A stretch of DNA of 64,000 nt from Vitreoscilla filiformis (GTDB lineage Bacteria > Pseudomonadota > Gammaproteobacteria > Burkholderiales > Burkholderiaceae_C). The first letter of the stretch is position 1. Each line of letters begins with the position of its first letter. A program made the position numbers and the translations under genes. Positions 7,376 to 37,472 of this stretch are shown one piece after another. The stretch is from NCBI RefSeq assembly GCF_002222655.1, contig NZ_CP022423.1, positions 3,038,001 to 3,102,000 of the forward strand, given 5' to 3'. A model generated the notes under the pieces. The model had not been told where the DNA came from. It ran no database searches and saw nothing but the letters and a program-made list of their open reading frames with translations.

Positions 7376-7386
<11 letters not shown>

Positions 7387-10321: not shown

Positions 10322-10476
10322 GTTTTGACCCCAAGACCAACCATCCGGCCCGATGGTAGGCCAGGATTTGACCCCACGCGGCCTGGTGTAAGGTATGCAC
10401 GGCACGCTCGGAAGCTCTTCTTAAAATCGCCAGGGATGGGCCACCCTCTTTGAATATGTCAAGAGCGTCCCGTCGC

Positions 10477-11142
10477 ATGAACCGTGTCCTGCTGATTGAT
10501 GATCATCCCTTGGTACTATGGGCCATGCAGCGCGAGCTCACGCGGCTGTTTCCTCACGCCCAAGTCTGCACGTTCAACAGTGACCAGTCCCTGCGCCAGT
10601 ACCTGCACACGGCCTCTCGCACCCGCCACGATTTGGTGCTGCTCGACTTGAGTCTGCCCGATGACGATGGGTTTTCGCTGCTAGAAACCCTGTTTCGCCA
10701 ACTGGGGTGGACCACCGTGTTGGCCCTGTCAGACTCGGAGCACCCAGAGGACATGGTGCGCGCCATTGATGCCGGTGTCATGGGTTTCCTGCCCAAGCGG
10801 CTGAGTCTCCAGGAAATGTGCCAAGCCCTGACCCTGGCGACAGCAGGGGCCGTGTTCGTCCCCTCGACCTCCCAGGCGGGGCCACCCGATGCGGGCGCTC
10901 CATCACCGAACGGCACGCCAACCCACCCGATGGCCTTGGGCCTGACCCCTCGCCAATGCGATGTGCTGAAACACCTGTGCGATGGCCGTCAGAACAAGGA
11001 GATTGCCCGTGTGCTCGGCCTGTCGCTGGACACGGTCAAAGCCCACGTGGCGGCCATTTTGCGTGCCCTCGGGGTGAGCACCCGCACGCAGGCCATGCAA
11101 GTGGTGGCCGCCCAGCGTGACCGCTCACGCCAGCCCGCTTGA
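10477..11142 (+). CDS. NarL/LuxR-type response regulator
   Basis: A 222-residue transcription factor. The receiver domain starts MNRVLLIDDHPLVLW, with the acidic pair DD at 8-9 and the phospho-acceptor Asp at about 57 (LVLLDLSLPDDD). The switch Thr position is replaced by Ser/Asp (LALSDSEHP) and the conserved Lys is in FLPKRLS. A Pro-rich linker leads to the LuxR-type helix-turn-helix (LTPRQCDVLKHLCDGRQNKE, then VLGLSLDTVKAHV). The start at 10477 gives the usual short lead into the first strand; in-frame starts at 10456 (ATG) and 10450 (TTG) are possible. It is divergent from the sensor kinase, and a shared promoter region lies between them. Targets are unknown. Confidence 0.9.
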   Translation: MNRVLLIDDHPLVLWAMQRELTRLFPHAQVCTFNSDQSLRQYLHTASRTRHDLVLLDLSLPDDDGFSLLETLFRQLGWTTVLALSDSEHPEDMVRAIDAGVMGFLPKRLSLQEMCQALTLATAGAVFVPSTSQAGPPDAGAPSPNGTPTHPMALGLTPRQCDVLKHLCDGRQNKEIARVLGLSLDTVKAHVAAILRALGVSTRTQAMQVVAAQRDRSRQPA

Positions 11143-11162
11143 AGCCCGGGGCGGCGTGCAGA

Positions 11163-12530
11163 TCACTTGGCGAGCTGCTCCAGTGTGGTGAGTAACTCGC
11201 TGTCTTGCTCGTCCCAAGTGCCTCGGGTTTGCATCTGCTGTGCCAACTTCAGGGCCCGTTGGGCGTGGCTCTTCTGCCCGGACGCTTCACTCAGTTTCAT
11301 CAAGCTGATGATCAAATCGCGCTGGCGCTCGGGGCTGTTGGGTTCGGCTTGATGCAAGGCTTGGCGCACTTGCACACCCGCTTGGTAACTCTTGGCCGCT
11401 GCTGCGGCATGGCCTTGTGCGCTGAGGGCATCACCGATGTCCATGTGACTGTCACCCAGGTCACTTTGCCAATCGACGTTGTCGGGCTCGGCCTTGGTTA
11501 ACTTTTGCCGGATGGCCAGGCTGGACTGGTAGTGTTTCACAGCCCCCGCCCAGTCTTCCATGGCCCCGAGGGTGTCGGCCACGCTGTCATGGCTGACACT
11601 CAGGTCGTTTTGGGCGTCCAGATCGTCGGGGTGGGCCTTGACCCATTTTTGTCTGAGCGTCAGGCAGGCTTGGTAGCTTTGAAGGGCTGCGGGCAAGTCG
11701 TCTTGTTCCGTCTGCACATCGCCCAACTCATCGAACGCTTCACAGCGCTCGGGGTCGGTGCTGGCGGTTTGGGTGGCGCGTGTCAGCGCGGCACGTGCTT
11801 TCGTCCATTGCCGGTCGTCTTGGTACAACGCACCCAGGGCCATCCAATCGGCGTAAACGTGGGAATCGAGCTGTGTCAAAGCCTCGTAGCGCACCAGCAC
11901 GGAGCGGGTGCTGCCTTTGCCTTTGCCTCGGGCATCCAGCGCCAGCAAAGCCACGTAGCGCCGCAACGAGGCCCGCTCGGCGGAGGCCAGCCGAGGCGAT
12001 GTGTCGATGAGCCGATCCCAAGCGGACAGGGCACCGGCTTCATCCCCGGTGTTGTAGCGCCAAAGGGCGGCCAAGCCCTCGGGCGTGGCCGCCAGGGCCG
12101 TCACCGCCAAGCGCAGGGACTGGATGGCTTGGGCATAGTCCTCATCCTCCTCCGCCAGGGCGGCCACCAGGCGCTCTTGCGCCTGGGTCAGCTCTGGCGG
12201 CACGCCAGGCGCAGCGTCCAGCGACGCTGTGGTGCCCCCCAGCCGGGCCCAAGCGCGGTCAATGTGCTTGCGCTGCGTGAGCCGGGCGGCATCGTCTTCT
12301 TGTTCCAGCATCTGGGCCGTGGCTGAAGCGGCATACAACGCACGTGCCACAGCCGCCTGCAAGGCGGTCGGGCGCTGCTCCACTGGGGCGGCAGCGGCCG
12401 GCGCGGCCCAGGCTTCTGGTGCCAGCGGCCCAGTGGCTCCCGCACACACCGCCCCGGCCACCATCAGCACACGCACGACAGGGCGGCTCACAGCCGCCCA
12501 CGAACCGACCCACCTGCCTGCGTTTTTCAT
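11163..12530 (-). CDS. Exported tetratricopeptide repeat protein
   Basis: A 455-residue protein starting at the ATG at 12530 (MKNAGRWVGSWAAVSRPVVR), with a signal-like hydrophobic stretch ending near AWAAPAAA. The rest is helical. Three consecutive TPR-like units with SYQACL, HYQSSLAIRQKL and SYQAGVQVRQAL recur every 40-45 residues in the C-terminal half. Such repeats usually mediate protein-protein contacts; no catalytic domain is visible. The gene lies just downstream of the terminator that once followed tRNA-Gly, at the left edge of the integrated element, so its promoter region may have been altered by the insertion. It ends 20 bases from the convergent response regulator. Confidence 0.75.
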   Translation of the reverse strand: MKNAGRWVGSWAAVSRPVVRVLMVAGAVCAGATGPLAPEAWAAPAAAAPVEQRPTALQAAVARALYAASATAQMLEQEDDAARLTQRKHIDRAWARLGGTTASLDAAPGVPPELTQAQERLVAALAEEDEDYAQAIQSLRLAVTALAATPEGLAALWRYNTGDEAGALSAWDRLIDTSPRLASAERASLRRYVALLALDARGKGKGSTRSVLVRYEALTQLDSHVYADWMALGALYQDDRQWTKARAALTRATQTASTDPERCEAFDELGDVQTEQDDLPAALQSYQACLTLRQKWVKAHPDDLDAQNDLSVSHDSVADTLGAMEDWAGAVKHYQSSLAIRQKLTKAEPDNVDWQSDLGDSHMDIGDALSAQGHAAAAAKSYQAGVQVRQALHQAEPNSPERQRDLIISLMKLSEASGQKSHAQRALKLAQQMQTRGTWDEQDSELLTTLEQLAK

Positions 12531-12577
12531 CACGTTTGGCCTTTTTTGGTTTCCCCTTCTTGGGAGGAAGCCAAGAA

Positions 12578-12608
12578 AAAGCCCCCAAGCTGGGAGCGTG
12601 GGGGCTTT
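12578..12608 (-). terminator. Rho-independent terminator, orphaned from tRNA-Gly by the insertion
   Basis: AAAGCCCCCAAGC (12578-12590) pairs with GCGTGGGGGCTTT (12596-12608) with one mismatch and a 5-base loop. Read leftward, the stem is followed by a T tract (TTTTTC). It lies directly left of the att copy, where the end of tRNA-Gly would have been before integration. It is therefore most likely the original tRNA terminator. Confidence 0.7.
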
Positions 12609-12614
12609 AACTGG

Positions 12615-12640
12615 AATTTGGAGCGGCGATGGGAATCGAA
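12615..12640 (-). other. attL: duplicated 3' end of tRNA-Gly
   Basis: This 26-base stretch repeats the last part of tRNA-Gly at 22499-22572, including the T-arm core GGGAATCGAA and the encoded CCA. The flanking AATT is also shared. It differs from the right copy only by one missing G (GGC against GGGC). The similarity stops sharply after GAA, as expected where the element begins. It marks the left end of the 12.6-22.5 kb element. Confidence 0.85.
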
Positions 12641-12969
12641 AAACCTTCATAACTTGTTGATTTTTCAATAACCAAAAGCTCGCGCAGCTTACTTGTTCCC
12701 CCGCTTTGTTCCCCATCGGGGTCACCCTATAACTTACATCGTTAAGGATTGAACCGATTTTATCCGGTTTAACTGGCTTTTGACGAACGCGGGCAAGGTT
12801 GGCGCCAGTGCCCACGGCATGCCTCGCGCATTCACCGGCTTGCCCCACGCTGCCGCACCCCGGTGATTTACTTCCCGATGATGTGCGCCCGTCGCTGACG
12901 CGCCGAAGGCGTAGGGCGGGCTTCACCGGGCTGCACGCCCGGAAAACAGCCAGGGCGCACAGGTTCGGA
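12641..12969. other. Non-coding left end of the element
   Basis: No gene is seen in these 329 bases. They hold two direct copies of TTGTTCCCC(C) at 12693-12702 and 12706-12714, matching repeats at the other end. A weak hairpin lies at 12752-12769 (AACCG/CGGTT) and a perfect one at 12926-12942 (CCGGGC, loop TGCAC, GCCCGG). The latter lies 28 bases after the stop of the membrane-protein gene and may act as its transcript end, though no T tract follows. Confidence 0.6.
12693..12714 (+). repeat. Left arm-type repeats (TTGTTCCCC x2)
   Basis: Two direct copies spaced 13 bases, 53 bases inside the left att core. The same sequence family occurs inside the right att core at 22325-22385. Paired repeats at both ends are typical arm sites for tyrosine recombinases; integrase binding here is inferred. 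Confidence 0.5.
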
Positions 12970-14166
12970 TTACGCCCCCGCCTTGACTTCCCAGCGCTTG
13001 CCGTCCGGCGTTCGCTGAATCAGCCCCTCGCGTTCCAGTTCGGCCAGGTAGCCCGTGACGGTCGGATAACTCCCACCTTCTGCCCGCTGGATCGCTGCGA
13101 TTGTGGGCGCCAGCTTGCCCGCTTTGATGGCTTGGCGAACCCTGCGGAAGCGGTGTCCGTCACGCTCGCCCGTGCCGGTGTCCACCTTTACCCCCGCTTG
13201 AACCGTGCGCCGCTGTGCTGGCTTGCGGGGGGCTTTGTCGGGCATCGCTGGGGCTGGGCTGGGTGCTGGCTTGCTGGCCGGCGTGGCGGGCTCTGGGGTG
13301 GTTTGCTGCGGTGTCTGAGTGTCTGGCTGTGGGGGCGATGCGGGGGCAGGCTGGGGCGCTTGCTCTGGCACTGGCTGGGGTGCTGGCTTGGCCTTCAGGA
13401 TGCCCCACCAGGGCGCCCACTTGGCCTGACTGCGCCCCATGCCCACGGTGGCCCCGGTGAACACTGCGCGCCACATCGCACCAGCCACGCCGAAGAACAC
13501 CAGCCCGGCCACCGACACCAGCACGCCACGCGCCACCACATAGGCCAGCGCCCACCGCTCCCCCAGCATCCCGATGAGCGTGGGGCGCTTTTCGCCTTCG
13601 GTTTTGCCGAGTTCGGCATAAAGCGCCGCCGTGCTTTCATCTAATCGCGCCGCTTCTTTGGCTGCCATCGCCCCTTGCTGGCGCACCCATGCGTGAGTGC
13701 TGGCGGTTTGCTTCTCAGCATTGGCGCGCAGCGTGGCGGCGTTGGCTTCGATCCGGGCAATCTGGTTGCGCAGGTCTTGGGCGCGTGAGGCTGTGGCTTG
13801 TTGGCTCATCTCTGCGCCCTCGGTGATTGCCAACTGAACGGCCACGATGGTGCAAACCTCCAACGCCAGCACGGCCCCAGCCAGACCGAACAGGCGCCAG
13901 CGCTGCGCCCACATCTTGCGCACGGGCAAGAACGCTGCGATGCCGAAGGCGGCCATTTCCGCAGCGACGAACATCAAGGCAGCGGCCAGCGCCAGCGCTT
14001 GGGCGGCTTCGTCGGCTTCCAGGGCTTGGGCGCCGTGCTCAAAATACCGCAAGGTGATGACGGAAGCCCAAAACCCAAACGCGCTGCACACCAGCGCCAG
14101 CAGGGCATAAACGGGGCGGGGCAAGTGCGCGTCGCGTTCTTGGCTATAGGTTTTGGTCAGAAACAT
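12970..14166 (-). CDS. Four-helix membrane protein with coiled coil and C-terminal winged-helix-like domain
   Basis: A 398-residue protein with three N-terminal membrane segments (about 18-40, 57-80 and 92-113). A predicted coiled coil (about 118-170) follows, then a fourth membrane segment near 205-230. A long Pro/Ala/Gln linker (about 250-305) leads to a basic C-terminal domain whose pattern (AIQRAEGGSYPTVTGYLAEL, then EREGLIQRT) looks like a winged helix. The ATG overlaps the end of the upstream replication-endonuclease gene by 10 bases, so the two are likely coupled. Such a layout could tether element DNA or sense membrane state; no known family was recognised with certainty. It is the last gene of the element before attL. 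Confidence 0.7.
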   Translation of the reverse strand: MFLTKTYSQERDAHLPRPVYALLALVCSAFGFWASVITLRYFEHGAQALEADEAAQALALAAALMFVAAEMAAFGIAAFLPVRKMWAQRWRLFGLAGAVLALEVCTIVAVQLAITEGAEMSQQATASRAQDLRNQIARIEANAATLRANAEKQTASTHAWVRQQGAMAAKEAARLDESTAALYAELGKTEGEKRPTLIGMLGERWALAYVVARGVLVSVAGLVFFGVAGAMWRAVFTGATVGMGRSQAKWAPWWGILKAKPAPQPVPEQAPQPAPASPPQPDTQTPQQTTPEPATPASKPAPSPAPAMPDKAPRKPAQRRTVQAGVKVDTGTGERDGHRFRRVRQAIKAGKLAPTIAAIQRAEGGSYPTVTGYLAELEREGLIQRTPDGKRWEVKAGA

Positions 14167-15827
14167 GGTGCGGCCTCCTTGGGGGTGGCATCGGCGCCAG
14201 CGGGGGCGCCTTCGGTGGTGTTTTGGGGGCTGGCGCTGGTGGCGGGCTCGCTCGTTGGCTCGCTGGCCGGCGTGGTGGCTGTGGCAGGCTCTGCCGAGTT
14301 ATTGATTCGAGTCCAAGGAAGACAAAGACCGGCGTTTTCCTCGCTGCTCCGTAGCTGAATCACCCACTCGCCAGGGGTGCGCGTGGTGACGTGTTCGGGC
14401 TGGCCCATGTCGCCACCGCTGGCAAATACGCCCACCAGACAGCGCGCCAGCTCGCCCGGATAGCGGGTGCTGGGGCGCTTGATGTAGTCGCCTGACAGGT
14501 CTAGACCATCCAGCGCCAGCAGGCACAGCAAGGCGCCTTGCTCGTTGGCCTTGATGAATGAATGGGCCTCACGCACCGACACCGAGTCGGGCAGCGCGTC
14601 GGCTTGCACGCGGTACAGCTCGCGCACCGGGGTGACAGGGGGCAGTCCGAAAAATTGAAATTGCCGGATGCCGTGGGTACGTGACCAAGTGGTGATGGCC
14701 TGCGCTGCCTCGGTGCTGGGGGTGGCGGTTTCGTTGTCCTCGCCCACGCCTTCGCCGTCGATTGATTTGCTCACGTACTTCATGACGTAGCCCAGGGCGG
14801 AACCTTTGGCCGGGTCGATTCGCTCCACGGTGAAGCGGTGTTCTTGCGCGCCGGCTTCGTTCGGGGTGTCTTCCAGTGCGTAGGCGCGCACGATGTCGGT
14901 AAAGCCGTCCGCCAGTTCGGGCCGCACGAAGGCCAGAACGTGCCAATGGGGGCACGCATCATGGTGAGGTTCCACAACGCGCATGCCCATGGTGGCGATG
15001 CCCGCATGCTTGGCCTTGCGCATCGCGTTGGCCCACACGCGGCACAGATAGGCGTTGGCTTGACGGGGCGTTGTGCCGTTGTACTTGTCGCCGCTGGGGT
15101 GCATCCGGCTTGGGCATGTGACCGTCAGGAACAGCCCGACCATGCCCAGGGTCTGCGCGTACTGCTCAACACCCTTGAGGCGAACGGCCATGGCTGCGCG
15201 TCGGTTGGCCGGGTTGGCGAGGCTGGCTTGCACCACATCGGCAAGCTGGATCACCTCGCCCGTGGTGGTGTTCATCACTTCCATGCACGCGAGAAGGCCA
15301 TCCATGCGGCGCCGGTCGGCTTTGGCGCGTGCCATCGCTCGGGCCGATGCGTAGGGGCTCATGCCCCGGCGCACCTGACCCGCCGCAATCTCTGCTTCTT
15401 CGACCTTGCGGAATCGCTTGCGCAACGCCCGGCGCCACCACAGCGGGGAGCGCAGGCGGTTTGCCATCCAACGCGCTTTGTCTTCGTCGGTGTCTTTTTT
15501 GGTGCCCACCTTGGGCGCTTCGACGTGGTGACGGGCCGCAAAGATTTCCAGCCCTGCCAGGATGTGCGCCGGGCTGGTGCCCATGCGCTCCCACGCTTCA
15601 CACAACCGAGTTGCCACCTCTGAGGCTCGCGCCGCATCGGCATGAATGGCTGAGGTGGACAGGTCGAACCGCTCCACCTGTTCGAGCTGATCCGCAGCGG
15701 GTGTGCATGCACACATGGCGGCTTCGGCGATGGCGCGCAACGCTGCAATGTCGCCCTGTCCACTGCCATCGGTCAGCCCGGCCAATGCTTGCGCGAGGGC
15801 TTCGTTACTGAATTCGTCCAAGCTCAT
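14157..15827 (-). CDS. Phage GPA-family replication endonuclease (HUH, rolling circle)
   Basis: A 556-residue protein of the phage P2 gpA type, which nicks one strand at a double-strand origin and joins covalently to its 5' end. Motif 1 is FLTVTCPSRMHP (233-244). The metal-binding HUH motif is HWH at 294-296 within ACPHWHVLAFV. The paired catalytic tyrosines are Y347 and Y351 in GYVMKYVSKSIDG. GIRQFQFFGLPPVTPVRELY is the conserved block after the active site. The C-terminal ~40 residues are Pro/Ala/Thr-rich low complexity. The start is the ATG at 15827, which overlaps the stop of the upstream small gene (ATGA). In P2 the nick site lies inside the A gene, so the origin may be internal here too. 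Confidence 0.88.
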   Translation of the reverse strand: MSLDEFSNEALAQALAGLTDGSGQGDIAALRAIAEAAMCACTPAADQLEQVERFDLSTSAIHADAARASEVATRLCEAWERMGTSPAHILAGLEIFAARHHVEAPKVGTKKDTDEDKARWMANRLRSPLWWRRALRKRFRKVEEAEIAAGQVRRGMSPYASARAMARAKADRRRMDGLLACMEVMNTTTGEVIQLADVVQASLANPANRRAAMAVRLKGVEQYAQTLGMVGLFLTVTCPSRMHPSGDKYNGTTPRQANAYLCRVWANAMRKAKHAGIATMGMRVVEPHHDACPHWHVLAFVRPELADGFTDIVRAYALEDTPNEAGAQEHRFTVERIDPAKGSALGYVMKYVSKSIDGEGVGEDNETATPSTEAAQAITTWSRTHGIRQFQFFGLPPVTPVRELYRVQADALPDSVSVREAHSFIKANEQGALLCLLALDGLDLSGDYIKRPSTRYPGELARCLVGVFASGGDMGQPEHVTTRTPGEWVIQLRSSEENAGLCLPWTRINNSAEPATATTPASEPTSEPATSASPQNTTEGAPAGADATPKEAAPCF

Positions 15828-16072
15828 GGCGTGACCTCCCACAAGCGCAGTTCCACGGGCTCATGGGCCACGCGGGCCAGCTCAGAGCCGACCTTGCGCG
15901 CTTCTGGGTCGGGCAACACGTAGGCGCTCGCCTTGTCCGCAGTGAAGCGAAAGCGCCGGGCGAGGGTGTCTATCTGGCGCAGATAGGCGCCTCGGTGTGG
16001 CAAGAAAATGGCGTAGCGCAGCGGGGGCAGGCATGCAGCGGCGCCACCCCATGGGGTGTAGGTTGTTGGCAT
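15824..16072 (-). CDS. Small conserved-looking protein, function unknown
   Basis: An 82-residue protein (MPTTYTPWGGAAACLPPLRY...) with a good ribosome-binding site (AGAGGT) before the ATG at 16072. It overlaps the next gene as ATGA and follows the previous stop by 10 bases, so it is part of a four-gene operon ending in the membrane protein. It has no signal peptide and no membrane segment. The middle (YLRQIDTLARRFRFTADKAS) is basic. No family was recognised; its coupling to the nicking enzyme suggests a replication accessory role, which is inference. Confidence 0.65.
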   Translation of the reverse strand: MPTTYTPWGGAAACLPPLRYAIFLPHRGAYLRQIDTLARRFRFTADKASAYVLPDPEARKVGSELARVAHEPVELRLWEVTP

Positions 16073-16082
16073 GGCTGACCTC

Positions 16083-16745
16083 TTAGGCTGTGGCCGATGT
16101 GCTGGCGCTGTCGGTCGCTGCGGGCTGGTGTGGCCCTGCGAAGTCTTCCAGCAAAAAGCCGGGCACCAACTCGGTCAGGTCAAGCGCGTGGTCAGGGTTC
16201 GACATGAGCATTCTTGTCGAGCGGATGGCGCGCAGCACGTCTGCCCGCTGGCACCGAGCGCGTGCCACGTCCGGCCCCGATGGGTTCGGGTGTCGGTCGC
16301 TGAAGCTCTCCACGCTCACGGGCTCGCGTGCCTGTTCGGTGGCCTGCGCCAGCATCTTGACGGCCTGTTGTGGATCGCCAGCGCGCAGGGCTTGTGCCGC
16401 CTGATCCAGTGAACCATCGCCCCACGGGCTGACCATGCAGCGGTGCGCGTCGGCTTGGTCGGGGGTGTCTTTGAGGATGGCGATAAACGCGGCCAGGAAG
16501 TCCGCCGCAACCTTCAGGCGAGCCATGCGCCGGGTGCTGGTTTCGGTGCTGGCCGAACGCGGGCGAAGGCTCAGTGTGTGGCGTGTGTGCGCCGTGGCCT
16601 TGATGGGCTGGGGGGCGCCGCTTTGGCGTTGCTGTGCCGCTCGTTTGGCGAGCTTGCGCGCCAGGCGCAGCATGTAGAAGCGGGAAGTGTTGGCGCGATT
16701 GGACGCGCCCACGGTGCCGGGGCTTCCGGCTTTGGTGCGGGACAT
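16083..16745 (-). CDS. Hypothetical element protein, first gene of the HUH operon
   Basis: A 220-residue protein from the ATG at 16745, with AAGGAA placed 8 bases upstream. The N-terminus is very basic (RLARKLAKRAAQQRQ) and resembles a nucleic-acid-binding tail. The middle is helical (ADFLAAFIAILKDTPDQADA) and the end is acidic then Ser/Thr-rich (DSASTSATA). No known family was recognised. It directly follows the repeat-rich intergenic block at 16746-17200, so its promoter and any autoregulatory operator should lie there. Confidence 0.65.
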   Translation of the reverse strand: MSRTKAGSPGTVGASNRANTSRFYMLRLARKLAKRAAQQRQSGAPQPIKATAHTRHTLSLRPRSASTETSTRRMARLKVAADFLAAFIAILKDTPDQADAHRCMVSPWGDGSLDQAAQALRAGDPQQAVKMLAQATEQAREPVSVESFSDRHPNPSGPDVARARCQRADVLRAIRSTRMLMSNPDHALDLTELVPGFLLEDFAGPHQPAATDSASTSATA

Positions 16746-17200
16746 AGGTTCAGGTTCCTTGTCGAACTGCTGAAACCCACTCGCCACGGGGACTAGTCGT
16801 GACTGGCGGGGCTGGAACTGGGGATAGTCACACAAGACAAGTTGTGCCGCCGGCCTTGCGGTTGGGCGCTCCCAGTTCCATCCCCATGGAAAACCTGCGG
16901 GGGTAATTCGGAAATGGCAACGCCTCGCTGACGGGGAGGCTTTCCGCTTGTCTCGGGTGTGACTAGCACCACGGGGCGCAGTGTACGCGAAGCGCCGCGA
17001 ACCTTTCAACATTGAACGATCCGACCTTTCAAGATTGAACGATTCGCCCCAGGGCATCGCAGGGGCGCCGCACCCTGAATCTGACCCTTCACGGCCATGC
17101 ATTTCTGAACGATCCGACCTTTCAACATTGAACGGGTGATGTTGCATTTTTGAAAGGTTGCCCGGTTCGGTTTTGAATGCTTCGGCGGTGTCTGTGATCT
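16746..17200. other. Repeat-rich intergenic block, candidate origin or operator region
   Basis: No gene is seen in these 455 bases between the DnaB-type helicase and the HUH operon. Inverted repeats include GGAACTGGG (16814-16822) with CCCAGTTCC (16871-16879), and AGTCACAC (16826-16833) with GTGTGACT (16957-16964). Near the helicase end lie three copies of a TTCAA-N2-TTGAA palindrome. This density of structure is typical of a plasmid or phage origin or a complex promoter. Confidence 0.55.
17005..17132. repeat. Three TTCAA-N2-TTGAA palindromic repeats
   Basis: TTCAACATTGAA occurs at 17005-17016 and 17121-17132, and TTCAAGATTGAA at 17028-17039. A 19-base direct repeat, GAACGATCCGACCTTTCAA, occurs at 17014-17032 and 17107-17125. 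Dyad sites of this kind fit a dimeric regulator or initiator. The likely binders are the AlpA-like or winged-helix proteins of the element, which is a guess. Confidence 0.6.
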
Positions 17201-18547
17201 TCAGCGCCGCCGATGTTGGCCGGCTTCGTTTTGGTGTTTCCTCGCACCCGGCCTCACGTCCGCGTCGGACTCATCCCAGCGCTGCACAGCGCCGGTGAAT
17301 TCCAGCGCCAGCCGGCCACGTCTGCCCTGCCGGTTCTTGGCCAAGATGCACGCCACCAGAACCCGCCCGCCTTCGAGTTCTTCGACCGGGCTCAACATCA
17401 TGACGGTGTCCGCGTCCTGCTCCACCGCGCCAGAGTCCCGCAGGTCTGACAAGTCGGGTTCGCTGCGATCCGTGGCGCGGCGGTTCAACTGCGACAACGC
17501 CAACACACAACAGTCCAGCTCCTTGGCCAGCGTCTTCAACCCCCGGCTGATTTCCTCCACCTGCGCATTACGGTTGTCTCTGGGATTGCTGCCGGTCATC
17601 AGTTGCAAGTAATCCACCACAACCAACGCCAGCCCGCCGCATCGCTGGCGGATCATGCGGGCCTTGTGGCGCACGTCCGCCAGCTTCAAGCCGGGGGTGT
17701 CATCGATGTGCAGCGGCAAGCGTGACAGGCGTTCGGCGCCATCCGACAACCGGCTGAAGTCCTCGTCGCTCATCCGCCCCGTGGCCAGCGCGCCCATGTT
17801 GACGCGCCCCAGGTTCGAGAAACACCTGTCCACCAGCTCCCCCGCAGGCATTTCCTGACTCAGCACCAGCACAGGCGCCCCAGCGCCAGCCACGGCCAAG
17901 GCGATTTGGCCGGCCAGGGACGTTTTGCCCACAGACGGCCTCGCCGCTAAAACAATCAGCTTCCCGCCCTTGAGCCCACCGCCTAGGGCGGCATCTATCC
18001 GACTCAGCCCCGTAGAAAGCCCTGCAAGCGTTTTTCCTTGCGCCAGGCTGTCTAGGTATTCCAGGCGCTCAGAAACTAGCTCTAGCGCCGCTCTAGGGGC
18101 TCCTGTGGTGCTTTCCTGCGCCAATCGAGAGAACATGGCGCCGATTTTCTCGGTCAGCTCGCTTGTCGGGATGGCGGTATCGTCTGCCAGCGCTTGTGCC
18201 TCTTTGGCCGCTGTGGCGATGCTGCGGCGCAGGGCTCGCTCCCTCACCAGTTCGGCATATCGGCCAGCGTTGCGCACGCTGGGCACGCTTTGAGCCAACT
18301 CGTTCAGGTACACCAGCCCACCGCAACCATCGGCGCGGCCAGCGTCCCGCAGCGCTTCAAACACGGTGATGACATCCACAGCTTGGCGCCTGCCGGCCAT
18401 GCTCACAATCACGCGCCACAGCTCCCGGTGTCGCTGGATTGCAAAGTGATCCGCCTGCAAGCCCGTGCCTTCGACGCCGGCCAGCGTGGCGTGGACATCC
18501 AACAGGGCCGCGCCGATAAGGCTTTGCTCTACTTCGGTTTGTTCCAT
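17201..18547 (-). CDS. DnaB-type replicative helicase of the element
   Basis: A 448-residue hexameric-helicase homologue, close to the usual DnaB length. The N-terminal DnaB domain begins MEQTEVEQSLIGAALLDVHA and is followed by a linker. The RecA-like ATPase domain opens with the block GKTLAGLSTGLSRIDAALGG. Walker A is RPSVGKTS at 203-210 and Walker B is LVVVDYLQLM; the DnaB signature NRRATDRSEPDLSDLRDSGA also matches. The start is the ATG at 18547 with AAGGGC upstream, 8 bases after the initiator gene stops. An own helicase next to an initiator is the P22-type arrangement (genes 18 and 12), letting the element open its own origin without a helicase loader. It is distinct from a chromosomal dnaB by its element context. 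Confidence 0.9.
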   Translation of the reverse strand: MEQTEVEQSLIGAALLDVHATLAGVEGTGLQADHFAIQRHRELWRVIVSMAGRRQAVDVITVFEALRDAGRADGCGGLVYLNELAQSVPSVRNAGRYAELVRERALRRSIATAAKEAQALADDTAIPTSELTEKIGAMFSRLAQESTTGAPRAALELVSERLEYLDSLAQGKTLAGLSTGLSRIDAALGGGLKGGKLIVLAARPSVGKTSLAGQIALAVAGAGAPVLVLSQEMPAGELVDRCFSNLGRVNMGALATGRMSDEDFSRLSDGAERLSRLPLHIDDTPGLKLADVRHKARMIRQRCGGLALVVVDYLQLMTGSNPRDNRNAQVEEISRGLKTLAKELDCCVLALSQLNRRATDRSEPDLSDLRDSGAVEQDADTVMMLSPVEELEGGRVLVACILAKNRQGRRGRLALEFTGAVQRWDESDADVRPGARKHQNEAGQHRRR

Positions 18548-18555
18548 GTTGCCCT

Positions 18556-19281
18556 TCAGAACTGGTGATCCGTGGAAAGCAACCCGCCAGGGCGGGCAGG
18601 TCTTGCGGCTGGGGTTCCATGCTGCTGCTGTCGCTCTTTGCGGCACCAGTTGCGCCAGACGGCAAGCCAATTGGCCTTGAAGGCATCGCGTCCGGCTTTG
18701 GCGTGCCAGTAGTCGCGGAAGGATTCCGCCACCTCATCCGGGTCAAGGTCGGGGCGGTTTTGAGCACACAACTCGCGCCAGTCATCGGGCAACTGCCAGT
18801 CATCAGGCAGACGGGTGCCGCGTGTTGAAGTGGGGGAGTGTTGGCGTGCTGTGCGCGCCTCTACTGGTTCTTGATGGTTCATAGATATAGGGGATGCGCA
18901 AGAACTTGCACCCCTACGCGCAAGCCTTTGCACCCCCCCTGCAAGGCTTTGCACCCCTGCAAGTTTTTGCACCCCCCCTGCAAGGGCTTGCACCCCCTTG
19001 TGGGCGTCCTGCCGCTTCAGCCGATCCAGTCGGATGCGGAACAAGTTTGTTCCTCTTGGCCCCTCACCTTCCCGAACCTCTAGTTCACCAGACGCCCGCA
19101 GAGCGGCCAGAAGCGTCTGAGCGTTGCGCTGTTTCATCCGGCACTTTTCGGCCAGCGTGGCAACAGCCGGGAAGGCTTGGCCGTCGTCGTCGGAAAAATC
19201 AGCGATTGCCAACATCATCAGCAGGTGCGGGCCTGCGTGAATCGAGTGCTCCCACACTGCGGCCTGTGTTCTCACGCTCAT
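18556..19281 (-). CDS. Phage-type replication initiator (lambda O-like organisation)
   Basis: A 241-residue protein. The N-terminal ~90 residues form a winged helix (HLLMMLAIADFSDDDGQAFP, then LAEKCRMKQRNAQTLLAAL), as in phage replication proteins. The middle (about 97-129) is a run of GVQ-x-LA repeats that is the translation of five DNA iterons. The C-terminal block (LPDDWRELCAQNRPDLDPDE, then FRDYWHAKAGRD and WLAVWRNW) is common in phage initiators that sit before a helicase or helicase loader. The start at the ATG at 19281 has GGGAG upstream and overlaps the stop of the small ORF before it (ATGA). It is probably the origin-binding protein that recruits the helicase encoded next. Confidence 0.8.
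   Translation of the reverse strand: MSVRTQAAVWEHSIHAGPHLLMMLAIADFSDDDGQAFPAVATLAEKCRMKQRNAQTLLAALRASGELEVREGEGPRGTNLFRIRLDRLKRQDAHKGVQALAGGVQKLAGVQSLAGGVQRLARRGASSCASPISMNHQEPVEARTARQHSPTSTRGTRLPDDWQLPDDWRELCAQNRPDLDPDEVAESFRDYWHAKAGRDAFKANWLAVWRNWCRKERQQQHGTPAARPARPGGLLSTDHQF
18897..18992. repeat. Five palindromic iterons inside the initiator gene (candidate origin)
   Basis: Copies of [T/C]GCAA-N4-TTGCA start at 18897, 18919, 18940, 18958 and 18979, at spacings of 22, 21, 18 and 21 bases, close to two helical turns. Each is followed by a run of C. On the low-coordinate side lies an AT-richer stretch (about 18867-18890). The repeats are within the coding sequence, as in lambda ori inside gene O. 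Confidence 0.75.
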
Positions 19282-19400
19282 TGCCGACTCCCTCTCTGCG
19301 CCCGTAGTTGTCCCAGCAGCGCCAGCACAGGTAACGCCATCCCAGACGTTCCACCCAGGGCCACAACGGGCACCCAGGGCGCGAGGTTCTTCCACGTCAT
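19278..19400 (-). CDS. Small single-pass membrane protein, 40 residues
   Basis: An ORF of 40 codons beginning MTWKNLAPWVPVVALGG. Its ATG overlaps the stop of the upstream winged-helix gene (ATGA) and its own TGA overlaps the ATG of the initiator gene (ATGA). Both overlaps argue for real, coupled translation. Residues about 8-32 are hydrophobic enough for one membrane helix and the tail is basic (RAQRGSRQ). The role is unknown; it could simply couple translation. Confidence 0.5.
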   Translation of the reverse strand: MTWKNLAPWVPVVALGGTSGMALPVLALLGQLRAQRGSRQ

Positions 19401-19708
19401 GACGTGCCCCCTTCCAGCAGGTGGCGGGCCTTGGTGGCGTCTTCAGCGGTCAGGCTGTACACCCCACGCTCTACGCTTCGCCCGTCTCGGTCGCGGATGC
19501 GTTCCAGCTCACAGGGCAGCGTCATCCCCAAGCGCCGGCGGATGCTGCGGATGACATCGGGGCTGTTGGATGCACCCGCAATCCGGTCGAGTTGTTCGCG
19601 GGTTTTGGGGCCGTCCAGCAGCGCAGAAAGGGCGCGCCGCTGTCTAGGGCTTCGCAATCCGAACGCATGCGGGCGAACAGGAAGCAAGGGGGGTTGATGC
19701 GAGTGCAT
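19397..19708 (-). CDS. Small winged-helix-like protein of the element
   Basis: A 103-residue protein from the ATG at 19708, with a strong GAGGGAA upstream. The core reads RRALSALLDGPKTREQLDRI, then SNSPDVIRSIRRRLGM and VERGVYSLTAEDATKARHLL. This is the pattern of a compact winged helix with a beta-wing, often seen in phage early regions. It starts 11 bases after the AlpA-like gene and overlaps the 40-codon ORF. It may regulate the early operon or assist the initiator; this is inference from position. Confidence 0.65.
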   Translation of the reverse strand: MHSHQPPLLPVRPHAFGLRSPRQRRALSALLDGPKTREQLDRIAGASNSPDVIRSIRRRLGMTLPCELERIRDRDGRSVERGVYSLTAEDATKARHLLEGGTS

Positions 19709-19719
19709 GAATGGTTCCC

Positions 19720-20061
19720 TCACTTGCTGGCGCCTTGGGCCTGAAGAAATTGCCGGATTTCGCACGCACGCCAGCGGGTACACCTCGCGCCCATCTTGAT
19801 GGGCTTGGGAAAGCCGGGGAAGCCTTCGCGGTGCATGCGATACACCCAAGAAACGGAAGTCCCCGCCAGTTGGGCAAAGACGGCAGTTCTCAGCAGTGCA
19901 TCGGGATCAGTTGCCGTGGCGGTGGTTTGCAGGCTGTCGCGGCTCGGGTGTTTGGCCTGAGCGGTCAGGGCTGCGATGTTGGCGCCGTGTGCGGACTTGA
20001 TGGCCGGCTTAGAAGCCGGGGCGGGTGCGCTTTGATGCGCGGACTGTTTATGTTTGGTCAT
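19720..20061 (-). CDS. AlpA-family DNA-binding regulator or excisionase
   Basis: A 113-residue protein. The N-terminal half is polar and disordered. The C-terminal part (TAVFAQLAGTSVSWVYRMHR, then FPKPIKMGARCTRWRACEIRQFL) is the AlpA/MerR-like helix-turn-helix. The FPKPIK-x-G-x-R-x-R-W pattern is diagnostic of AlpA. In satellite phages and integrative islands such proteins turn on integrase or act as excision factors. The ATG at 20061 is preferred; an upstream in-frame GTG (20097) exists. It heads the early replication operon and has GTTGTCGG-type repeats in its upstream region. Confidence 0.85.
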   Translation of the reverse strand: MTKHKQSAHQSAPAPASKPAIKSAHGANIAALTAQAKHPSRDSLQTTATATDPDALLRTAVFAQLAGTSVSWVYRMHREGFPGFPKPIKMGARCTRWRACEIRQFLQAQGASK

Positions 20062-20151
20062 GTGGGAAATTCTTTTGTCACGACTTCCCGGCGCCACATG
20101 CTCAACTTGCTTTTTTTGGTGATTGGTCGGAATGGCTGGGGGCGCTCGCCT

Positions 20152-20182
20152 CCGACAACCCCCGACAACCCCCCCGACAACC
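20152..20182. repeat. Three short direct repeats (CCGACAACC) upstream of the AlpA-like gene
   Basis: CCGACAACC occurs at 20152-20160, 20162-20170 and about 20174-20182, separated by runs of C. A TGTC half-site follows. The repeats lie about 90-120 bases upstream of the AlpA-like start, in a 279-base gap between it and the ProQ-like gene. An operator role is likely but unproven. Confidence 0.45.
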
Positions 20183-20340
20183 TGTCAACTCACTACCCGT
20201 GAGCGTTCGTGCTGGCCTCACCTTGTCGTCGGTGCAGGTGTTCGCGCACATGCACCCGTTAGCCCATCAACGCCCTCGCTGGGCGAGTGGCTCGCGCAAA
20301 GTCCGTGCGCCGGGGTTGTCCAGGCAAAGACAAAAAAAGA

Positions 20341-21009
20341 TCAACCAGCATTGCTTGACTGTGCTTCTCTTTCCACCCGCCGCGCCAGTCTTTGCGCCGC
20401 TGCCTCTCGCTGCTCTGCCGTCACTTCCCCGTCTGGCGTGCCATCAAGCCGGAACCTCTGCCCACCTTGGGCCAGGGCTTGCACGTACTTCGTGCGCTTG
20501 GTGTGCATGTCGATTAACTTTTCGGCCACGCGCACGGAATACCCTTTTCCCGTGGCAATCCGGCGCACGTCTGGGAATATGCCCACGGCCAGCGGGTGAT
20601 ATTCACGCCACGTTTTATAGGCTTCGACCATATAACCCTCGAGCTCCCACATCTTGACTTCTGAGGGTGGCGTCTTGGGCTTCTTGGGTGTCTTGGCCGG
20701 CCCCTTTTCCTTGGCTGGCTGGGGCGTGGCCTTCCTCGCCGTTTCTGTGGCCTTTGCGGGCCGTTCTCGCGCCTTCGTGGGGTCTTCCGGCGTGGCTGGC
20801 TTGCGCTTGATGCTGAGGGTTCGGCGTTCCGGCGCAGGGCTGGGGGCCGAGCTCGGTGCCACCACAACCGGCGCACTCGTTACCTTGCGGGCAATCGTTA
20901 TCGTTTTTCTTGGCTCTGCCGATACAGGGGCCGGGTTCGGTGGTGCGGTATTTTCTGGCGGGCGTTCTATTTTCAGAACCCGTTTAATCGTTTTGATGAT
21001 GGTCGCCAT
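20341..21009 (-). CDS. ProQ/FinO-domain RNA-binding protein on the element
   Basis: A 222-residue protein. The first ~118 residues are Pro/Lys/Ala-rich and basic (KTPKKPKTPP). Residues about 120-212 match the ProQ/FinO fold: YKTWREYHPLAVGIFPDVRR, a helical block with VAEKLIDMHTKRTKYVQAL, then QRFRLDGTPDGEVTAEQREA. The L-DG-x-P-x-G-x-v pattern is diagnostic. Known members are RNA chaperones that bind structured 3' ends; FinO controls plasmid transfer through an antisense RNA. The ATG lies 9 bases after the integrase stop, so the two are cotranscribed. A long basic N-terminal tail before the domain is unusual compared with chromosomal ProQ. Confidence 0.82.
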   Translation of the reverse strand: MATIIKTIKRVLKIERPPENTAPPNPAPVSAEPRKTITIARKVTSAPVVVAPSSAPSPAPERRTLSIKRKPATPEDPTKARERPAKATETARKATPQPAKEKGPAKTPKKPKTPPSEVKMWELEGYMVEAYKTWREYHPLAVGIFPDVRRIATGKGYSVRVAEKLIDMHTKRTKYVQALAQGGQRFRLDGTPDGEVTAEQREAAAQRLARRVEREAQSSNAG

Positions 21010-21018
21010 AAATCACCC

Positions 21019-22305
21019 TTATGCGCTGGCCTTTCTAAACTGCAACACCTGCGCCCCGTCGCGCAGCTTGTCCAGGTAGTCCGCCCATGCTTGCATCATT
21101 TCCCGCCGCTGTTGCATGAATTCGGCGCGGTCATAGGCCATCCCCAGCGGGCCAGATTTGCCGTGCGCTAGCTGCGCTTCCAGCACGTCCGGGCTCATGT
21201 TCAAGCGCTCCACCATGAGGGTGCGCGCCATCGCCCGAAACCCGTGGGGCGTCATGTCGTCGTTGCTGTATCCCATGTTGCGCAGCGCTGCGCGGATGGT
21301 GTTCTCGCTCATGGGCGCGTCACCCATGCGCAGGCTTGGGAACACGTAACGCCCCCCACCTGTCAGCGGTCGAAGCTCTGCCAGGATCGCCAGCGCTTGC
21401 CGGCTCAGGGGCACCATGTGGGGCCGCCCGCTGACCTTGGCCTGAACGGTGCGTTTCATCTTGGCCGATGGAATCGCCCACATCGCCCCATCAAAATCGA
21501 CTTCGGCCCATTCCATCGCCCGCACGTTGCCCGGACGCTGGAACACCAGCGCAGACAGCACCAGCGCCGCACGGGTGACAGGCTGGCCCATGTACGCCTC
21601 ACACGCCCTCAGCAGGGCGCCCACCTGCGCAGGCTCCAACAATGCGGCCATGTGTTTGACGGCCTGAGTTTTCAGCGCGCCGCGCAGGTCGGGAACCGGG
21701 TTGCGCTCGCATCGTCCCGTGGCGATGCCGTAGCGGAACACCTGCCCGATGCACTCCGACAACTTGCGCACCGTTTCCAATGCTCCACGGGCTTCGACTT
21801 TGCGCAGCACCTCCAACACCATCGGCGCCGTGATGTCGGCAAGGGCCAGCGTGCCCAGGCGGGGGAACACATCTTTTTCCATGAGGCTGACCCATCGGCC
21901 AGCATGTGACGCGCTCCACCCTTGCGCCTTGCTCTGGTGGAACTCTCGCGCCATCGCTTCAAACGTCGCCGCCTTGTTGGCGCTTGTGGTGAGCTTTTCA
22001 ACCTTGCGTCGTTGAATCGGGTTCTCGCCACGCTTCAAGTTTTCGCTGGCTTCTTCTCGGGCTTGGCGTGCCGCCTTCAGGCTCACAGCAGGGTAAGAGC
22101 CCAGCGCCAGCCGGTATTCCTTGCCCCCCATGCGGAACTTCCAGAACCAGCGCTTTGACCCCCCGGGGCTGACTTCCAGGTAAAGCCCCCCGGCATCCGT
22201 CAGGCGGTGCCGCTGTTTGCCAGGCGGACAGGTGGCGCGCCTGAAGTCGGTATCTGTCAGGATGCGGGCTTTTTGTTTGGCTGGTTTTTCGGCAGGGGTT
22301 GGCAT
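21019..22305 (-). CDS. int: Tyrosine recombinase integrase (P4-type)
   Basis: A 428-residue site-specific recombinase that inserts the element into tRNA-Gly. The N-terminal DUF4102-type arm-binding domain contains GLYLEVSPGGSKRWFWKFRM and YRLALGSYPAVSLKAAR. The catalytic domain shows the first Arg in FQRPGNVRAMEW, then TPHGFRAMARTL (H-x-x-R), LAHGKSG, and the nucleophile Tyr in GMAYDRAEF. The length is normal. The start is the ATG at 22305. It lies 193 bases from the tRNA gene at the element's right end, the usual place for a P4-like integrase, and leads an operon with the ProQ-like gene. Confidence 0.95.
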   Translation of the reverse strand: MPTPAEKPAKQKARILTDTDFRRATCPPGKQRHRLTDAGGLYLEVSPGGSKRWFWKFRMGGKEYRLALGSYPAVSLKAARQAREEASENLKRGENPIQRRKVEKLTTSANKAATFEAMAREFHQSKAQGWSASHAGRWVSLMEKDVFPRLGTLALADITAPMVLEVLRKVEARGALETVRKLSECIGQVFRYGIATGRCERNPVPDLRGALKTQAVKHMAALLEPAQVGALLRACEAYMGQPVTRAALVLSALVFQRPGNVRAMEWAEVDFDGAMWAIPSAKMKRTVQAKVSGRPHMVPLSRQALAILAELRPLTGGGRYVFPSLRMGDAPMSENTIRAALRNMGYSNDDMTPHGFRAMARTLMVERLNMSPDVLEAQLAHGKSGPLGMAYDRAEFMQQRREMMQAWADYLDKLRDGAQVLQFRKASA

Positions 22306-22324
22306 CGTGAGGGCTCCGAGTGCT

Positions 22325-22385
22325 GGGGGAACAAACGGGCCGTTTTCCTCGTTGTACCCCCATCGTTCCCCTGTGTTGTTCCCCC
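22325..22385. repeat. Right arm-type repeats (TTGTTCCCC family)
   Basis: Direct copies read TTGTACCCCC (22352-22361), TCGTTCCCC (22363-22371) and TTGTTCCCCC (22376-22385), at 11 and 13 base spacing. An inverted copy, GGGGGAACAA, is at 22325-22334 and pairs perfectly with the last one. The same family occurs at the other element end (12693-12714). They lie between the integrase start and the att core and are likely integrase arm sites or its operator. Confidence 0.55.
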
Positions 22386-22433
22386 GATTCTGTGCCCTTC
22401 ACAGCCTACATCTGCACCAACGTGACAACAAAA

Positions 22434-22466
22434 AAGCCCCTAGGCGCTTGATTTGCCTAGGGGCTT
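22434..22466 (-). terminator. Rho-independent terminator after tRNA-Gly, carried by the element
   Basis: AAGCCCCTAGGC (22434-22445) pairs perfectly with GCCTAGGGGCTT (22455-22466), loop of 9. Read leftward it is followed by TTTTTGTTGT. It replaces the original terminator now at 12578-12608, so the restored tRNA still ends properly and read-through into the integrase is limited. Confidence 0.8.
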
Positions 22467-22494
22467 GATCTGTTGTGAAGCCTTGCGCTTCGCT

Positions 22495-22521
22495 AATTTG
22501 GAGCGGGCGATGGGAATCGAA
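22495..22521 (-). other. attR: att core overlapping the tRNA-Gly 3' end
   Basis: A 27-base segment shared with 12615-12640 except for one extra G here. It covers the T-arm, acceptor strand and CCA of tRNA-Gly plus four bases beyond. The intact tRNA lies on this side, so integration restored the gene from the element's own copy. Confidence 0.85.
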
Positions 22522-22572
22522 CCCACGTCTTGAGCTTGGGAAGCTCAGGTCCTGCCATTGAACGACGCCCGC
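22499..22572 (-). tRNA. tRNA-Gly (anticodon CCC)
   Basis: Acceptor stem GCGGGCG/CGCCCGC, anticodon stem TGAGC/GCTCA with loop TTCCCAA giving anticodon CCC, T-loop TTCGATT, and encoded CCA. It is the integration target of the element on its left. The 3' end is identical with the att core. Confidence 0.95.
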
Positions 22573-36762: not shown

Positions 36763-36839
36763 TGGCGGAGTGGACGGGACTCGAACCCGCGACCCCCGGC
36801 GTGACAGGCCGGTATTCTAACCAACTGAACTACCACTCC
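36763..36839 (-). tRNA. tRNA-Asp (GTC), copy 1
   Basis: Full cloverleaf with acceptor GGAGTGG/CCACTCC, anticodon loop CTGTCAC and encoded CCA. It is the last gene of the leftward array and identical to the two other tRNA-Asp copies. Confidence 0.97.
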
Positions 36840-36843
36840 GCAG

Positions 36844-36919
36844 TGGCATCTCCTAGGGGATTCGAACCCCTGTTACAACCGTGAAAGGGTCGTGTCCTAG
36901 GCCTCTAGACGAAGGAGAC
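36844..36919 (-). tRNA. tRNA-Glu (TTC), copy 1
   Basis: Acceptor GTCTCCT/AGGAGAT, anticodon loop CTTTCAC, T-loop TTCGAAT, encoded CCA. It is separated from tRNA-Asp by 4 bases. Confidence 0.97.
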
Positions 36920-36946
36920 AAGTAACCATGACAACTCAGCAAAATG

Positions 36947-37023
36947 TGGCGGAGTGGACGGGACTCGAACCCGCGACCCCCGGCGTGACAGGCCGGTATT
37001 CTAACCAACTGAACTACCACTCC
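36947..37023 (-). tRNA. tRNA-Asp (GTC), copy 2
   Basis: Same sequence as copy 1, with anticodon GTC and encoded CCA. Spacing to the next tRNA-Glu is again 4 bases, showing duplication of an Asp-Glu unit. Confidence 0.97.
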
Positions 37024-37027
37024 GCAG

Positions 37028-37103
37028 TGGCATCTCCTAGGGGATTCGAACCCCTGTTACAACCGTGAAAGGATCGTGTCCTAGGCCTCTAGACGAAGGA
37101 GAC
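37028..37103 (-). tRNA. tRNA-Glu (TTC), copy 2, with one base change
   Basis: Matches copies 1 and 3 except at 37073 (G to A on the plus strand), which changes an anticodon-stem C-G pair into a wobble pair. The anticodon TTC is intact. Confidence 0.96.
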
Positions 37104-37125
37104 TTTGTGCTGAATTATCGAAAAC

Positions 37126-37201
<76 letters not shown>

Positions 37202-37207
37202 AGATTT

Positions 37208-37284
37208 TGGCGGAGTGGACGGGACTCGAACCCGCGACCCCCGGCGTGACAGGCCGGTATTCTAACCAACTGAACTACCACTCC
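37208..37284 (-). tRNA. tRNA-Asp (GTC), copy 3
   Basis: Identical to the other tRNA-Asp genes. It follows tRNA-Ala copy 1 by 6 bases and precedes tRNA-Glu copy 3 by 4. Confidence 0.97.
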
Positions 37285-37288
37285 GCAG

Positions 37289-37364
37289 TGGCATCTCCTA
37301 GGGGATTCGAACCCCTGTTACAACCGTGAAAGGGTCGTGTCCTAGGCCTCTAGACGAAGGAGAC
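37289..37364 (-). tRNA. tRNA-Glu (TTC), copy 3
   Basis: Same as copy 1; anticodon TTC, CCA encoded. Confidence 0.97.
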
Positions 37365-37396
37365 ATGGCCTTTACGTAATGACGTCAACGCTTGGT

Positions 37397-37472
<76 letters not shown>

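Follow-up and report, generated by a model that had tools for sequence, protein, structure and literature searches.

A 64,000-nucleotide stretch of Vitreoscilla filiformis DNA (contig NZ_CP022423.1, positions 3,038,001 to 3,102,000; hereafter the window) contains an integrated element of 9,907 bases (window positions 12615-22521) that is bounded by a repeat of the 3' end of a tRNA-Gly(CCC) gene. Our reading, to which we give a probability of about one half, is that of an intact integrative element which depends on a helper, in the manner of a minimalist phage satellite. Because some of its relatives in other bacteria are equally bare, the element is probably a hitchhiker that borrows another's vehicle, and this vehicle is most likely a phage. 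A one-off deleted prophage is unlikely, since the HUH nickase of the element falls among those of tRNA-bounded elements (4.9-7.5 kb) in which no structural gene was detected, and separately from P2-like prophages, since a sister element exists and the integrase (Int), AlpA and a predicted membrane protein (Mem) look maintained, and since a 15 kb element in another genus (locus L059) has exact tRNA-Met ends.

Element boundaries and gene content

The attachment (att) sequence, AATTTGGAGCGG(G)CGATGGGAATCGAA, is present as a copy of the tRNA-Gly 3' end at 12615-12640 (26 bases, shorter by one base) and as the 27-base original at 22495-22521, within the intact tRNA-Gly(ccc) gene that served as the integration target (22499-22572, minus strand). 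The two copies differ by a one-base insertion or deletion and have 16 bases in common without a gap. When 21 bases of the left copy were searched ungapped with up to three mismatches, the only site in the 64 kb was the copy itself, and 100 shuffled sequences gave none. The motif TTGTTCCCC occurs four times in the window, each time within 250 bases of one of the two element ends; the mean in shuffled sequences was 0.67, and four copies were reached in 0 of 100. It is probably an integrase arm site, with two candidate arm sites at 12693-12714 and further repeats of this type at the integrase end (22326-22384).

All ten genes lie on the minus strand, and all ten proteins were scanned against family libraries including Pfam and PHROGs. 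These two assigned the integrase, AlpA, initiator, DnaB and Phage_GPA-type HUH proteins, and Pfam gave no family above its cutoff for four of the ten. No capsid, terminase, Zot, coat, packaging, relaxase or coupling match was obtained. The P4-type tyrosine integrase (21019-22305; PF13356, PF22022 and PF00589, the last with 49 bits versus a cutoff of 27.1) is directly followed by a ProQ/FinO-domain protein (20341-21009; PF04352, 58.5 bits, cutoff 27). Next come an AlpA-family regulator/excisionase (19720-20097; PF05930, 27.5 bits versus a cutoff of 21; phrog_66), a small unknown protein of 150 aa (19397-19849, likely start 19708), an HTH_36/O-like replication initiator (18556-19395, likely start 19281; PF13730, 30.8 bits, cutoff 25; phrog_1032, E 1.1e-17) and a DnaB-type helicase (17201-18670, likely start 18547; PF03796, E 1.2e-73; phrog_19, E 3e-100). 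According to PHROGs, the initiator/DnaB pair is of the phage type.

After DnaB come an unknown protein of 220 aa (16083-16745, in a frame open to 17147; five homologues) and an 82-aa protein (15824-16072) directly upstream of the HUH rolling-circle initiator, a P2-gpA-type nickase (14157-15842, likely start 15827; PF05840, E 2.3e-77). The latter matched phrog_91, 'nicking at origin of replication', with an E-value of 1.7e-124, and contains HWHV (299) and Y352xxxY356, with the tyrosines four residues apart. An HWH motif combined with tyrosines so spaced is the pattern of the HUH superfamily. The stop codon of the HUH gene is overlapped by the ATG (14166) of Mem (12970-14166), a predicted four-transmembrane protein with a coiled coil, a disordered linker and a C-terminal winged helix, for which no Pfam family scored above cutoff. 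Ahead of the HUH operon are a promoter-like site, TTGAAA-18-TACACT (16980-17009, minus strand), which is weak, as two such sites were found versus 1.2 expected by chance, and three copies of an 18-base repeat (17001-17134) that probably form an operator.

These results bear out the preliminary description of this DNA, which had reported a 9.9 kb element in tRNA-Gly between an att repeat and the intact tRNA, with a tyrosine recombinase, AlpA, initiator, DnaB and HUH protein and with no capsid, terminase, Zot, coat, relaxase or coupling gene. Its single-strand gene arrangement was likewise correct, but its 'tight overlapping operons' were only partly so, as there are gaps of about 240 bases between the ProQ and AlpA genes and of about 450 bases between DnaB and the gene after it, assuming that the latter starts at 16745. 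It had also overlooked the sister element and two genes, those for the ProQ/FinO-domain protein and for the membrane protein with the winged helix.

Hydropathy gave four membrane segments for Mem, and an AlphaFold2 model (pLDDT 77, 30 sequences) predicted long helices and a disordered linker, with the winged helix at residues 338-394; the charge pattern suggests that this last domain faces the cell interior. We interpret Mem as tethering element DNA to the membrane, a function represented among phages by p16.7 of phi29. No solved structure was found by sequence search, and a fold search against the PDB was likewise negative at E ≤ 0.001. Among viral folds, the top match was an uncharacterised Caudovirales protein (E 1.3e-4), which is at most an agreement in architecture, because the TM-score was 0.30 and the root-mean-square deviation 30. 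Two candidate kinships were rejected. For FtsK gamma (2ve8), the alignment with the winged helix reaches a TMt of 0.79 but an E-value of 0.67, so that it is an analogy only; DtxR and GntR folds also turned up in this search, FtsK_gamma was not among the matches listed (25 of 34 families) for 30 members of the Mem alignment A1, and the host genome has FtsK_gamma in one place, outside the element. The most frequent Pfam match there, Tetraspanin in 14 of the 30 Mem members (best E 4.3e-6), we attribute to four generic helices and a coil and not to kinship.

Relatives in the host genome and in other bacteria

The same genome contains a second element of 16 kb (G000:C1:593929-610000, i.e. L032:9930 to L033:6001) that begins in a tRNA-Ser(CGA) gene. 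Its integrase (at C1:594154) is 83% identical to that of the window element over 412 aa, its AlpA 77% over 91 aa and its Mem 70% over 291 aa. The replication genes differ, comprising a Toprim protein, DUF3987 and initiator-like open reading frames (ORFs), and a Type ISP restriction-modification enzyme is carried as cargo. For the three genes compared between the two elements, the nonsynonymous and synonymous divergences (dN/dS; Nei-Gojobori, own script) were 0.11/0.67 for Int (about 0.16), 0.23/0.77 for AlpA (about 0.30) and 0.26/0.94 for Mem (about 0.28). Since these ratios of 0.16-0.30 are well below 1, Int, AlpA and Mem look maintained and not decaying. A first search for a longer terminal repeat in the sister element found none. 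The TTGTTCCCC motif is present at both of its ends, and at the far end a 13/16 match to the tRNA end follows 52 bases after the motif. As that match alone is not unique (there is one other such match in 31 kb), the far end rests on the motif-to-core spacing, which is 52 bases in both elements. The sister element also has a copy of the 220-aa protein (36% over 207 aa), with 47-base tandem repeats (L033:1023-1221) at its start.

Relatives of the HUH protein were found in small elements elsewhere. Seven of 13 HUH loci on genome contigs had a tRNA gene in the examined stretch, and five of the seven testable loci had direct repeats of 45-53 bases around the HUH-containing stretch. These att-bounded stretches (L005, L007, L010, L011 and L012) measure about 7.5, 6.0, 6.0, 4.9 and 6.7 kb, respectively. 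We scanned their 65 ORFs (64 listed by script, one dropped and two added) against PHROGs at E ≤ 1e-5 and obtained 17 families: integrases (matching four of the 65 ORFs), excisionases, regulators, a nickase, a 'DNA transposition protein' and three nameless families, two of which also match the window HUH protein. No family named structural was among the 17, and blastp detected no DnaB, initiator or Mem relative inside the five elements. A relative of the 82-aa protein precedes the HUH gene in L007 (47%), and weak relatives do so in L006 (31%) and L129 (30%), both at E ~1e-3. The idea that these small elements are inoviruses was dropped because neither Zot nor coat genes were found.

In a tree of 71 distinct HUH sequences (78 collected, seven duplicates dropped; 24 of 120 listed homologues used), rooted at the midpoint only, the window HUH protein fell into a 35-row group with the small-element proteins (100/100), with the phage and P2-like prophage proteins across that split. 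At least 37 of 399 genomes of the taxonomic family, host included, had an HUH match (up to three candidates scored per genome). By reading, 11 of the 37 carry a PF04860 portal gene at most 40 kb from HUH and on its contig. None of the six genomes with long matches does (G000, G026, G212, G275, G401 and G430, the contigs of the last two being those of L009 and L007, respectively, by length), but G026 is uninformative because its contig is just 3.5 kb long. The closest HUH relatives (66-96%) are metagenome-derived proteins, which included 879 relatives at E ≤ 0.001. The longest contigs with related HUH genes (P0008-P0120) peak at about 7 kb (24 of 113 at 6.5-7.5 kb), as if complete small elements or circles had been assembled. 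On reading the sequences, we also noted that same-clade HUH genes in L131 and L132 adjoin a large serine-recombinase-like protein, with no tyrosine integrase, and that gpA-family HUH genes in L133 and L137, perhaps those of a tailless-phage provirus, have small phage-like genes and a gene for a P-loop ATPase-like protein as neighbours.

The Mem family comprised 35 listed proteins, itself included. With up to four candidates scored per genome, alignment A1 matched nine of the 399 genomes of the taxonomic family, host included, and the host alone among 399 genomes drawn from the order; viral contigs gave no match. We examined 15 Mem loci in other genomes, L058, L061, L063-L065 and L067 by ORF reading only, and the continuations of L061 and L064 additionally by Pfam. 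The 15 kb element in L059, whose tRNA-Met ends match exactly over at least 66 bases, carries an integrase, a relative of the 150-aa unknown protein, initiator-like ORFs, DnaB, a single-stranded DNA-binding protein (SSB), DUF3987 and Mem, together with a small protein whose HTH_17 match is below cutoff and, by reading, a toxin-antitoxin-like pair. L060 and L062 have an integrase (51% and 49%), the same small unknown protein, Mem, a large primase-like protein and SSB; the relatives of the 150-aa protein in these three loci are 46-54% identical over about 72 aa. Pfam analysis of 63 hand-chosen ORFs from L059, L060/L069 and L062/L070 (E ≤ 1e-5) gave 20 families, none of them structural, packaging or relaxase families; for structural genes this result rests on Pfam, because 25 of 49 families were listed in the PHROG scan. 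In L054, L055 and L057, from one other genus, Mem is flanked by genes of chromosomal appearance and no phage gene is visible nearby; these may be domesticated copies, as judged from gene context.

A proposed helper-dependent life cycle and its rivals

In the life cycle that we propose, an infecting phage (or stress) would relieve repression and AlpA would drive excision by the integrase. The initiator would then load DnaB, the separately promoted HUH nickase would start rolling-circle copying, and Mem may tether the element DNA to the membrane via its winged helix. The copies would enter helper phage particles by a packaging signal of their own, with no packaging gene of the element involved, and a rolling-circle product might be usable by a helper that packages by the headful. 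The reading draws on the att and arm sites, the PICMI-like gene order described below, the sister element, L059 and the grouping of the HUH protein with those of bare small elements; the initiator, DnaB and HUH enzymes were identified as to family, and their actions in the cycle are deduced from that. In the host genome, the three portal, Zot and coupling families searched, Phage_portal (PF04860), Zot (PF05707) and TrwB_AAD_bind (PF10412), were without a match; the TrwB control was positive in seven of 14 genomes, and the Zot control was weak, its positive genomes not being known as inovirus carriers. As these families were unmatched, no resident helper of these kinds was seen, and if the absences hold, the helper must come from outside.

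Several observations weigh against such a satellite-like life. No cos or pac site, helper phage or particle DNA was seen, and there is no packaging-interference gene among the genes of the element. The tRNA-side att carries one base more than the left copy. The integrase is of a common, non-diagnostic type, with a match at E ≤ 1e-110 in 114 of 399 genomes. Outside the window, HUH and Mem are known together only from metagenome contigs, paired solely by equal size (17812 bases for P0003, P0123 and P0159; 22175 bases for P0005 and P0154; 7558 bases for P0006 and P0155). Among the relatives, L008 had no att repeat, L009 only a 13-base match, and L060 and L062 no att repeat of at least 13 bases. 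Finally, three Mem loci (G349:C49, G349:C6 and G282:C100) are tailed prophages with a portal, terminase or capsid gene within about 21 kb of Mem, and L066 and L068 look phage-like by eye, although Pfam matched neither of the two proteins tested, one per locus. Mem is thus common to phages and bare elements, and the three tailed-prophage relatives indicate that early genes are shared with phages. Together with the Caudovirales fold match, the occurrence of Mem in tailed prophages also counts in favour of the satellite-like reading.

Of the three possibilities raised in the preliminary description, the phage satellite and the integrative plasmid-like element survive, and the deleted prophage has become unlikely. 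In the plasmid-like alternative, which we consider improbable, the HUH protein would also act as a relaxase, and the nicked strand would be exported by the conjugation machine of another element. A tyrosine integrase with replication genes fits an integrative plasmid, and plasmid Rep proteins without a mobilisation gene are reported in PMC5714925 to act as relaxases for ICEBs1, but those Rep proteins are of other families and operate in Bacillus. Moreover, neither a relaxase nor a coupling gene was found among the ten element proteins, and the host genome lacks a TrwB-type coupling protein in the search described above.

Slightly less probable still is a prophage remnant that has lost its structural genes. 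The phage-type initiator/DnaB pair and the Mem relatives in the three tailed prophages would fit it, but in the tree the HUH protein sides with the small elements and stands outside the clade of P2-like phages and prophages. Bare elements with matching ends are found repeatedly and at different tRNA genes, and the genes of the window element are open, with Int, AlpA and Mem under the constraint seen against the sister. The preliminary description had held that a one-off deletion would be indicated if the same genes elsewhere always sat inside a larger prophage or conjugative element. This was not the case: same-clade HUH genes occur in the att-bounded elements at five of seven testable loci, the integrase/AlpA/Mem set recurs in the sister element, and exact tRNA-Met repeats flank an integrase-initiator-DnaB-Mem element of another genus; to be set against this are the three loci with Mem and a portal, terminase or capsid gene.

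Least probable is a satellite of a single-stranded DNA (ssDNA) phage, with HUH-made single-stranded circles packaged by a helper inovirus: such a satellite, pDolos, is mentioned in PMC11389934 and viral contig L019 has a related HUH gene near a gene that reads as Zot-like, but the L019 protein lies outside the 35-row clade, the host genome has no Zot match (with the weak control), and this life cycle does not need an initiator-DnaB pair.

Beyond the satellite-like reading of this one element, we tentatively consider a large unnamed class of bare Burkholderiales hitchhikers built on one gpA-family HUH clade and an integrase, to which this branch would have added a second replication module, based on DnaB, and a membrane-anchored DNA-binding protein. 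If this were true, a Mem-like protein might pass element DNA to whatever machine leaves the cell. Full-text literature searches revealed no publication on such elements among the matches listed (titles and abstract starts), subscription literature being outside their scope. Many genomic islands show no visible means of transfer, and the occurrence, in several genomes, of very small elements whose ends match makes this question testable. Such elements have hardly any genes beyond those for integration and copying, so that to move they must rely on a helper machine, by a DNA signal or the nickase, and since the HUH relatives are so numerous, the mechanism, once known, could cover many elements.

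Comparison with known elements and further observations

P4-like satellites and phage-inducible chromosomal islands (PICIs) are defined by the packaging-redirecting genes psu, sid, delta and terS. The window element resembles them in its P4-type integrase, AlpA, tRNA site and replication module, but no match to psu, delta, sid, terS or another packaging-redirecting gene was obtained in the element scans. With P2-like prophages (Peduoviridae) it shares a gpA-family HUH protein; unlike them, it has no late genes, its HUH protein lies across the fully supported split of the tree, and the portal/terminase cluster that accompanies gpA is missing, without a PF04860 match in the host genome. The Zot and coat genes of inoviruses were not found in the element, nor was Zot found in the genome. 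The relaxase typical of integrative mobilisable elements was absent from the scans of the ten proteins, and the coupling and mating-pair genes of conjugative elements were absent from the element, TrwB_AAD_bind being the coupling family searched genome-wide.

In gene order and sparse gene content the window element recalls the phage-inducible chromosomal minimalist islands (PICMIs) of Vibrionaceae. According to PMC10803314, these lack any gene for capsid remodelling and replicate by rolling circle; their core integrase, AlpA and primase are used to excise and copy the island, and the helper phage packages it as a concatemer. Like many PICMIs as described there, the window element is small and lacks capsid and packaging genes, and its integrase and the gene beside it are followed by AlpA, a single gene and the replication genes; both its integrase (PF00589) and its AlpA (PF05930, the alternative being PF12728) belong to the families that define PICMIs. 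It is nevertheless no PICMI, because it has no DUF3987 primase (or DUF5906) and lies in tRNA-Gly and not next to fis. An initiator, DnaB and the HUH nickase take the place of that primase; the sister element and L059 do have DUF3987. The five small HUH elements are like it in being tRNA-bounded, in their same-clade gpA-family HUH protein and in the lack of a detected structural family, and unlike it in their size of 4.9-7.5 kb and their other integrases. Tycheposons and other hitcher elements are likewise integrated and thought to depend on helpers, with different hosts and genes, a distinction drawn from description only (PMC11389934).

A defence role was tried and rejected: of six element proteins searched with PADLOC (E ≤ 0.01), HUH, ProQ and two unknown proteins had no family, and Mem and DnaB matched only at E-values of 0.0039 and 0.0004. 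A nucleotide search with 12600-20400, which comprises the element without the integrase and part of the ProQ gene, returned no phage relatives and six plasmid records, each over a 2% stretch, five of which are annotated as DnaB-type helicase.

The integration site was compared in two of 15 sister genomes of the genus (L098 and L099). In both, tRNA-Gly(ccc) and trmB are ordered as in the host, with no DNA match to the element at this site, and no clean empty site can be demonstrated because their left flank is non-syntenic. To the left of the element, the window (7376-12590) has a large ORF, a response regulator and repeat-protein genes that are unmatched at the tRNA-Gly site of L098 and L099. 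A terminator-like hairpin between the tRNA and integrase genes (22434-22466, plus strand) has a near-identical sequence in the sister element; terminator-like sites in the region numbered 12, versus 12.0 expected by chance. Further along the window, a tandem array of eight tRNA genes (Asp, Glu and Ala, repeated) occupies 36763-37472.

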